Source of the DNA: a virus
IMG/VR virus record: IMGVR_UViG_3300025168_000691
Location: 1 to 23,504 of that record
Strand: one strand, 5' to 3'
Length of the DNA stretch: 23,504 nt
Both the position numbers and the translations under genes were made by a program. Below are positions 18,266 to 19,703 of the stretch, one piece after another. How positions within the stretch are numbered: position 1 is the first letter of the stretch; each line of letters begins with the position of its first letter. The notes beneath the pieces were generated by a model. That model had not been told where the DNA came from. It made no database searches and saw nothing but the letters and a program-made list of their open reading frames with translations.

Positions 18266-18703
18266 CTAGTCTACACCAAAGTTTATCTGCACTGCTGTAG
18301 TTGGTCTAACAGGTTCGCTTCTGATACCAGCTCTGTCCATCAAGTCACGACTGGCTTCTAGTCTTACGTTCCCCGACTTGTGTTCGAGTAATGATACCAT
18401 AGTTGCCAATGCTTGACTACCATGCCAACCCAACACACTTAACGCTAACTCTTTACGATACTCCATAACGTGTTGCTTTTGTGCCGTTCTCCACGCCCAA
18501 GCTTTGTTCGCACCTATCCGTCTACTTGCTTCGGTTACGTTGCAACCATCATGCAACACCGCATGTACCAATTCAGCTTGTTGGTCGGTTACTTTAGGGT
18601 GATTAATACGTATTGTGGTTGATGATAATGTAATCTCTTCCATTGGCACAACACCACGTTTATATTTACTTGCTTGTTCAGGATTTGCTTTTACGTTACT
18701 CAT
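18266..18703 (-). CDS. Terminase small subunit (DNA-recognition)
   Basis: 145 aa. TDQQAELVHAVLHDGCNVTEASRRIGANKAWAWRTAQKQHVMEYR (about residues 34-78) is a homeodomain-like helix-turn-helix typical of small terminases. The C-terminal part ALATMVSLLEHKSGNVRLEASRDLMDRAGI is the common oligomerisation segment (L..H.S.NVRL.AAR.ILDRAG), followed by a short basic and beta tail (VRPTTAVQINFGVD) that usually contacts the large subunit. A Met four codons earlier (18715) is possible, but its AAGGA is immediately adjacent. The second ATG has it 12 nt upstream, so I used 18703; neither spacing is ideal. It is the first gene of the leftward block. Confidence 0.85.
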   Translation of the reverse strand: MSNVKANPEQASKYKRGVVPMEEITLSSTTIRINHPKVTDQQAELVHAVLHDGCNVTEASRRIGANKAWAWRTAQKQHVMEYRKELALSVLGWHGSQALATMVSLLEHKSGNVRLEASRDLMDRAGIRSEPVRPTTAVQINFGVD

Positions 18704-18777
18704 TACTATCAACATTCCTTAAACTATTTCAATCTGCGTAAGTGTTATCTATATAGAGCATCTCTCAAAATACACGT

Positions 18778-18787
18778 CAATTCACAT
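18778..18787 (-). promoter_or_regulatory. Late-motif copy before TerS
   Basis: The minus strand reads ATAATGTGAATTGACG, carrying the exact 10-mer ATGTGAATTG, about 75 nt before the TerS start. The overlapping TTGACG followed about 17-19 nt later by TCTATATA gives a fair sigma-70 promoter, so this copy may be the start of the whole leftward transcript. It is one of four copies, all in the same orientation relative to the genes that follow. Confidence 0.5.
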
Positions 18788-19106
18788 TATATAACTCCTT
18801 GTTATTACACAAAATAATATGCAGTTTTCGATTTCATGTGAATGCCAAGAACTCACAAACGAACTGATATTCACTACCCTTGCTGACGCATTGGTCGTTC
18901 ATACCAGTTGTTTGCGAGAACTAAAACACAAGAGTTTATTTAGGTTAGTTTCAATCGAAACATAATCTGTACCATAATGTACTTCTTGAATGGAGTAATC
19001 ATTAAACTCAACGGATGAGTTCAATAATTACGTGATATGTAAGAACATATCAATACCTCTAATTTTATGTTTCCCAAGAGGTCAAGGATAAAATATCCAA
19101 TGACAA
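18788..19106 (+). other. Left half of the divergent gap: folded region with several stems, no gene
   Basis: No convincing open frame. Inverted repeats on the plus strand: 18852-18866 with 18905-18918 (CTC-CAAAC-AACTG against CAGTT-GTTTG-GAG, about 13 pairs with one mismatch and one bulge); 18948-18961 (GTTTC/GAAAC); 19005-19021 (AACTCA/TGAGTT); 19034-19053 (TGATATGT-AAGA-ACATATCA, 8 pairs); 19081-19104 (GTCA-GGATA/TATCC-TGAC, 9 pairs). CATGTGAATGCC at 18835-18846 is a near copy of the late motif in the opposite orientation. CCCAAGAG precedes the last stem at about 19073-19080 and recurs at 19246-19253. The gap probably also contains the rightward promoter, but I see no strong -35/-10 pair. 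It may be a structured RNA, an origin, or both. Confidence 0.5.
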
Positions 19107-19393
19107 GTATCATCATCATCATGATGTTCCAGCTGACGGATTATAGTCCGGACGTTTGCCAAAGGGGTAGGGGTTCGCTAAAGCGCTCACGCATATCATT
19201 TATGTAAAGTATTTTTTTTCCAAGAAGAAACTATTTATGAGGATTCCCAAGAGGTCATTCTTTATTGATATGTATGTCATCATAAGAATGATGTCATACA
19301 AGCAAATAGTTTGAAAATAAATAATTGACATTTGGCAAGCCGACAGGACTAGAAACCGACAGACAAGTAGAACATCATTGATGATGATGATGC
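19107..19393 (+). ncRNA. Candidate structured RNA or long 5' leader, nested fold closed by a 23-pair helix
   Basis: Stems nest in order. P1: 19107-19129 with 19370-19393, 23 pairs with one bulged T (19379) and one G-U. P2: 19144-19149 with 19346-19351 (TAGTCC/GGACTA). P3: 19154-19163 with 19331-19340 (GTTTGCCAAA/TTTGGCAAGC, one G-U). P4: 19228-19236 with 19304-19312 (AAACTATTT/AAATAGTTT). P5: hairpin 19271-19283/19288-19300, 13 positions with one mismatch and loop AAGA. Wobbles favour transcription on the plus strand. P1 is made largely of ATC/GAT triplets, so its register may slip and each arm can also fold on itself. The 3' arm ends 31 nt before the first rightward start codon, close to its AGGGG ribosome site. 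No recognised RNA family; a minus-strand open frame at 19200-19403 is not credible. Confidence 0.6.
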
Positions 19394-19424
19394 AATTAAG
19401 CATCCAAAAAAAGGGGACTATACC

Positions 19425-19610
19425 ATGAACAATACTATCAACAATAAACTAGGCGTTATCACTCTAGAACAGCTAGAGGCACTAAGTAAAAAACTGCCTA
19501 ACAACGAACATTTAGTAACGGATTTAATGCAAGCGCATCAATCAGGCGACCCAGACAGGGTAGACCAGATACAATCTTTAATATCCGATAACTTAAACAT
19601 GGAAGTGTAA
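19425..19610 (+). CDS. Hypothetical protein, first gene of the rightward arm, 61 aa
   Basis: Small helical acidic protein (MNNTINNKLGVITLEQLEAL... ending LISDNLNMEV). The ribosome site AAGGGGACTATACC precedes the ATG and directly follows the folded RNA region. No family recognised. Likely early by position. Its base use resembles the following 240-aa gene (more C and G than the genes right of 22 kb). Confidence 0.7.
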   Translation: MNNTINNKLGVITLEQLEALSKKLPNNEHLVTDLMQAHQSGDPDRVDQIQSLISDNLNMEV

Positions 19611-19637
19611 CACATTACTATCAACATCAACAACAGG

Positions 19638-19671
19638 CATTGGCTAGTGGTACAAACATCATTAGCCAATG
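19638..19671 (+). promoter_or_regulatory. CATTGG...CCAATG leader hairpin before the 240-aa gene
   Basis: Perfect 9-bp inverted repeat CATTGGCTA (19638-19646) / TAGCCAATG (19663-19671) with a 16-nt loop, followed 33 nt later by ATG with ribosome site AGGAGGTCAAC. The ssb leader has a closely similar hairpin and the same AGGTCAAC before its start. There is no T-run after the stem, so it is not a simple terminator. It may be an RNA processing site or protein-binding site. Confidence 0.55.
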
Positions 19672-19703
19672 TAATTTTCATAAGATTAACTTAGGAGGTC
19701 AAC

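Follow-up and report, generated by a model that had tools for sequence, protein, structure and literature searches.

The gap between the leftward terminase genes and the first rightward gene of this virus is best read as encoding a new class of large, modular and probably noncoding phage RNA, similar in kind to GOLLD and ROOL and not homologous to either. The window, by which we mean the whole 23,504-nt stretch of viral DNA that was analysed, carries two structured domains that together fill this gap, from the terminase small subunit gene to the rightward gene starting at 19425. We assign a probability of about 0.55 to the reading that the leftward strand yields an RNA of ~630 nt, in all likelihood noncoding, whose action depends on its own folding, much as with the large RNAs GOLLD and ROOL. 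The argument draws on the position of the element, its covariation, its conserved motifs and loops, its preference for one strand, and the exchange of cassettes between close relatives. An initial annotation had placed a structured RNA of 287 nt on the plus strand of the same gene-free gap; the location is supported, the unit grows to ~630 nt in two domains, and the RNA is probably the leftward (minus) strand and not the assigned plus strand. In RNA sense, domain I, closed by helix P1, is followed by domain II and then by the terminase promoter. The features are, in that order:

19425..19610, plus strand: first rightward gene, 61 aa, one flank of the gap (gene call)
19417..19444, minus strand: candidate start promoter of the RNA, TTGTTG, 16 nt, TATAGT with a TG extension (score 8.4, weak)
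18781..19408 (about), minus strand: whole structured RNA candidate with two domains, both ends estimated from the folds and the comparative extent
19107..19403, minus strand: domain I, closed by P1 (folds; an exchangeable cassette in relatives)
19368..19391, minus strand: 5' arm of P1 in RNA sense (fold)
19325..19329, minus strand: 5' strand of the shared motif, GUCAA with a mismatched C (motif comparison)
19271..19300, minus strand: apical hairpin of domain I with a UCUU loop and one U-U mismatch (fold)
19204..19208, minus strand: 3' strand of the shared motif, UUUAC, AUGU-C-AA pairing with UU-U-ACAU (motif comparison and fold)
19109..19131, minus strand: 3' arm of P1 with the simple repeat (GAU)n (fold; (UG)n or (GUA)n in other clades)
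18781..19106, minus strand: domain II (fold energies of the two strands)
19033..19052, minus strand: UCUU-loop hairpin of domain II (fold and loop comparison)
18995..19031, minus strand: 16-bp hairpin of domain II, whose two G-U pairs would each be an A-C mismatch in plus sense (fold and sequence)
18852..18918, minus strand: long hairpin of domain II (fold)
18750..18780, minus strand: terminase promoter, -35 TTGACG at 18775-18780, 19-nt spacer, -10 TATATA at 18750-18755, read from the window sequence
18266..18715, minus strand: terminase small subunit gene, the other flank (weak match to phrog_2538, E 1.6e-4)

Within domain I, all five nested stems described initially are present where they had been placed. 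P1 pairs 19379-19391 with 19109-19121 and 19368-19377 with 19122-19131, and further inward lie 19346-19351/19144-19149 (TAGTCC/GGACTA), 19332-19338/19156-19162 and 19303-19312/19228-19237. The 287-nt stretch folds far beyond chance on both strands (plus -93.7 kcal/mol, z -7.6; minus -88.5 kcal/mol, z -7.3), and none of 200 shuffles matches its energy on either. Since z stays at -3.7 and -4.0 after removal of P1 (19132-19367; again 0/200 shuffles), the ATC/GAT repeat is not the source of the fold, and the view that its triplets do not explain the nesting holds.

Comparable structures recur throughout a family of related phages. Searches with the terminase proteins gathered ~230 IMG/VR loci, from which 93 unique gaps were extracted, including those of the window and of the isolate Hodr, a Pelagibacter phage; a few of the shortest may reflect misjudged gene starts. 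The same gap is found in ~90 IMG/VR relatives and in Hodr and mostly measures 500-900 nt. Folding z-scores were negative, that is, better than shuffles, in all 47 unique gaps extracted first, and 86/86 gaps are more stable than their shuffles on both strands. In Hodr, whose gap measures 337 nt, a hairpin of ~170 nt occupies the corresponding position, with z-scores of -5.0 and -5.2. Bacterial and archaeal genomes yielded no relatives of TerL or TerS, and among 50,697 phage records similar DNA was limited to matches of chance size.

Covariation in related marine phages, which had been named initially as a check on the structure, supports the fold. In every one of eight clade alignments the pairs changed on both sides outnumber those in all 300 shuffles, and in the window's own clade there are 17 against a shuffle maximum of 13; these counts are not probabilities, because shuffling leaves relatedness in place. 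Clade D (14 sequences, RNA sense) has 86 consensus pairs, 25 of them changed on both sides, a number that 0/500 shuffles reach, and in the beta group 27/47 pairs have changed on both sides. Controls with a slid partner also retain relatedness, yet their pair counts collapse, with 5-7 pairs left in clade D. A direct example is the helix formed by TAGTCC/GGACTA and TTGCCAA/TTGGCAA, which in two members of the window's clade, L004 and L006, consists of unrelated but still complementary arms.

Which strand is the RNA? The five stems do carry two G-U pairs in plus sense, the ground for the earlier assignment, and domain I of the window taken alone makes no real strand choice, being near neutral and slightly in favour of plus. 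The rest of the locus and the family favour minus. For the window the question is settled by domain II, which folds at -99.2 kcal/mol as minus (z -7.0) and -75.4 kcal/mol as plus (z -4.7); part of this difference comes from the G-U pairs that the hairpin at 18995-19031 has on the minus strand. Across the family the minus strand folds better in 86/86 gaps, with an excess stability after dinucleotide-shuffle correction of -38.1 against -26.4 kcal/mol for plus (Wilcoxon p 2e-14, overstated because related loci are not independent). By domain the minus strand prevails in 61/64 cases for domain I and in 53/64 for domain II, whereas in coding DNA farther downstream in these loci the preference is reversed, with minus better in just 13/87. 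Two measures that use no energy model agree. Among isolated mismatches, defined as single ones with five perfect pairs to either side, 14 are A-C and 2 are G-T in plus sense, corresponding to 14 G-U and 2 A-C on the minus strand, and the minus strand holds 15 distinct GNRA hairpins compared with 4 on plus. When only pairs predicted on both strands are counted, G-U and A-C come to 47 and 34, which is nearly uninformative, and consensus energies are ambiguous on strand in clades A and B.

Read in this direction, the relatives share an anatomy. In P1 a 5' arm near the start codon of the first rightward gene pairs with a 3' arm made of a simple repeat, which is (GAU)n in the window, (UG)n in most relatives and an invariant (GUA)n in clade D. 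A (GAU)n or (UG)n repeat occurs in 65/93 gaps, and in 53 of these 65 at most 5/100 shuffles pair equally well. The sequence GUCAA, found 60-100 nt from the start, accounts for 61 occurrences over the 93 gaps; paired with UUUAC it forms a helix in 37 loci, where 1.55 would be expected. Its C opposite U is retained in 17/22 distinct helices while the flanks covary. Loops are likewise conserved on different stems: UCGAU sits on 8 different stems in 31 loci, and GUAA, GCAA and GACCAA as well as UCUU, the last in the window's clade, behave in the same way.

Comparisons between nearly identical phages show whole domains being replaced. L240 and L243 are 100% identical in the terminase gene (430 nt compared) and in the first rightward gene (170 nt) and 93% identical in domain II, whereas their domains I agree at 0.46, the random level. 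For L103 and L218 the values are 99%, 99% and 98%, and 0.48 for domain I, and the same replacement of domain I is seen in L139/L149 and L123/L124. Identity is lost 17-58 nt into the gap and regained at the repeat arm, which is retained in the swaps while the incoming domain I comes with a 5' arm complementary to the repeat. The pairs L178/L198 and L135/L149 show an exchange of domain II. The window and L004, compared at the DNA level, are 97% identical in the terminase gene and 93% in the first gene, with 52% in domain I and 64% in domain II against 48% at random. Such domain swaps between near-identical genomes amount to natural experiments. Given the repeat anatomy of P1 and this exchange of cassettes, the best explanation for the repeat arm is that it serves as an acceptor with tolerance for many 5' arms.

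From these comparisons a course of events can be sketched. The gap would be transcribed, presumably as a separate RNA, in the leftward direction, giving two independently folding domains. P1 would close domain I, its low-complexity 3' arm pairing with differing 5' arms partly through G-U; since this arm would accept different partners, it could work as a universal clip with which whole domain-I cassettes are swapped without breaking the fold. Domain II would come next and end beside the terminase promoter. By analogy with known large RNAs, the molecule may act in trans, as a scaffold, a self-assembling particle, or a protein- or defence-facing RNA, and its fast turnover may reflect diversifying selection. 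A fuller version, which we hold tentatively, combines two exchangeable cassettes joined at the low-complexity arm with diversifying selection on an RNA directed at host defence or at other phages (RNA-based superinfection immunity, counter-defence) or on a self-assembling RNA particle. Were the repeat arm a universal acceptor of cassettes, it would represent a principle of modularity new to RNA.

The regulatory signals around the element bear on how it is made. No conserved sigma-70 promoter for the RNA was detected on either strand of the gap; the weak candidate at 19417-19444 occurs in the window's clade and is not conserved elsewhere. No T7-like RNA polymerase was found in 13 related contigs, but control genomes gave none either. 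The terminase promoter recurs in most relatives and clades as TTGACA-19-TATAAT or TATACT, and its 19-nt spacer, compared with the usual 17, suggests that a phage or host factor activates the promoter.

Under a competing and rather unlikely explanation, the structure serves the leftward operon of packaging and structural genes as a long 5' leader: a transcript starting near the first rightward gene would cross both domains and continue into the terminase gene, with the fold controlling or antiterminating it, as the put RNA does in HK022. This agrees with the leftward strand and with a position immediately ahead of the terminase genes in all relatives. It stays alive because the RNA has no mapped start or terminator: no terminator was found in the window region, where the sole terminator-like site lies outside the RNA candidate. 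The candidate resembles put and other leader antiterminators in being a structured RNA of a phage that precedes an operon; here, however, a conserved promoter separates the two and would bypass the RNA, which, lying upstream of that promoter, is not needed as a leader. No conserved expression platform was seen, and the size of the candidate far exceeds that of known leader antiterminators, put RNA being much shorter and located in early transcripts.

An element acting at the DNA level, for instance one whose inverted repeats form single-stranded or cruciform DNA at a packaging site or an origin of replication, appears improbable. The location between divergent gene blocks beside the terminase genes and the simple repeats at a fixed place would suit it, single-stranded DNA could likewise be the active form of a strand-specific structure, and structured single-stranded DNA can tolerate G-T pairs; but strand asymmetry with GNRA loops, loops kept on changing stems and a conserved C-U mismatch within a covarying helix are typical of RNA. 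We likewise give little credence to a regulatory or leader RNA that serves the first rightward gene and lies on the initially assigned strand: besides the plus-sense G-U pairs and the slight leaning of domain I, P1 does end 20-45 nt ahead of the rightward start codon in most repeat-bearing relatives, but the minus strand is favoured in all compared gaps and in domain II of the window, the unit is ~630 nt with two domains, and the gap lacks a consistent rightward promoter. A TTGAC before the first gene had been considered as such a promoter and was rejected, having no -10 after it and forming the GUCAA side of the helix common to the relatives. Of the roles initially listed, a free phage RNA, a long leader or a replication structure, the free RNA thus fares best and the rightward leader is unlikely.

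The candidate RNA was also compared with known families, and the initial impression that it matches no known class was borne out. At the gathering score no Rfam family was found in the window or, for 29 related loci, in the gap, and relaxing the limit to E 10 brought nothing relevant in the window region; the Rfam covariance models of GOLLD, ROOL, OLE and phi29 pRNA did not match. The literature searched on Hodr and on large marine phage RNAs contained no description of the element. GOLLD and ROOL both occur in phages and prophages, the former as a large ornate RNA, the latter as a large structured RNA with an unknown function (PMC12286853). The candidate shares with GOLLD its size class, phage origin, an elaborate covarying fold and a division into one more and one less conserved part; it differs in lacking an Rfam match and a tRNA in the window (the one tRNA among the Rfam-scanned loci, L023:708-780, lies outside the gap) and in swapping its domains as cassettes around a simple-repeat arm. 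GOLLD is often located near tRNA genes and forms a homo-oligomeric RNA cage. With ROOL the likeness is that of a large structured phage or prophage RNA; the candidate has no Rfam match and lies beside the terminase, whereas ROOL resides in tRNA islands. As the covariance models fail to match and the genomic setting differs, we do not regard it as a member of either family. Phi29 pRNA is, like the candidate with its neighbouring terminase genes, a phage RNA tied to DNA packaging, but the candidate is several times longer, has no Rfam match and occurs in phages with a two-subunit terminase. Extensive covarying structure in a gene-free phage locus, as found here, agrees with the general kind of large structured phage noncoding RNAs. 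These large ornate RNAs are few and their functions open; the candidate would add a widespread marine class beside terminase genes with a clear signature motif, and Hodr, whose host is Pelagibacter HTCC1062, provides a cultivated phage with a comparable structure.

Several smaller observations concern the flanks of the gap. In Hodr (EXVC031P, L094:3585-3921) the base of the large hairpin contains the ribosome site of the first rightward gene, whose translation could therefore be controlled by pairing. The first rightward gene of the window and its relatives is usually small and poorly conserved (~55-80 aa); several of its products have an SGD-x-x-R stretch near the C terminus, and the protein is a possible partner of the RNA. 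Directly after this gene the plus strand has a terminator-like hairpin at 19637-19672. The 10-mer ACTATCAACA occurs in three copies near gene starts (18702-18714, 19431-19443 and 19614-19626), and ACTATCAA is also found within the RNA region of L004, L007 and L010; ACTATCAACA/ACTATCAA is possibly a regulator site. Finally, an exact 14-nt direct repeat, TTCCCAAGAGGTCA, is present at 19071-19084 and 19244-19257, with one copy in each RNA domain.
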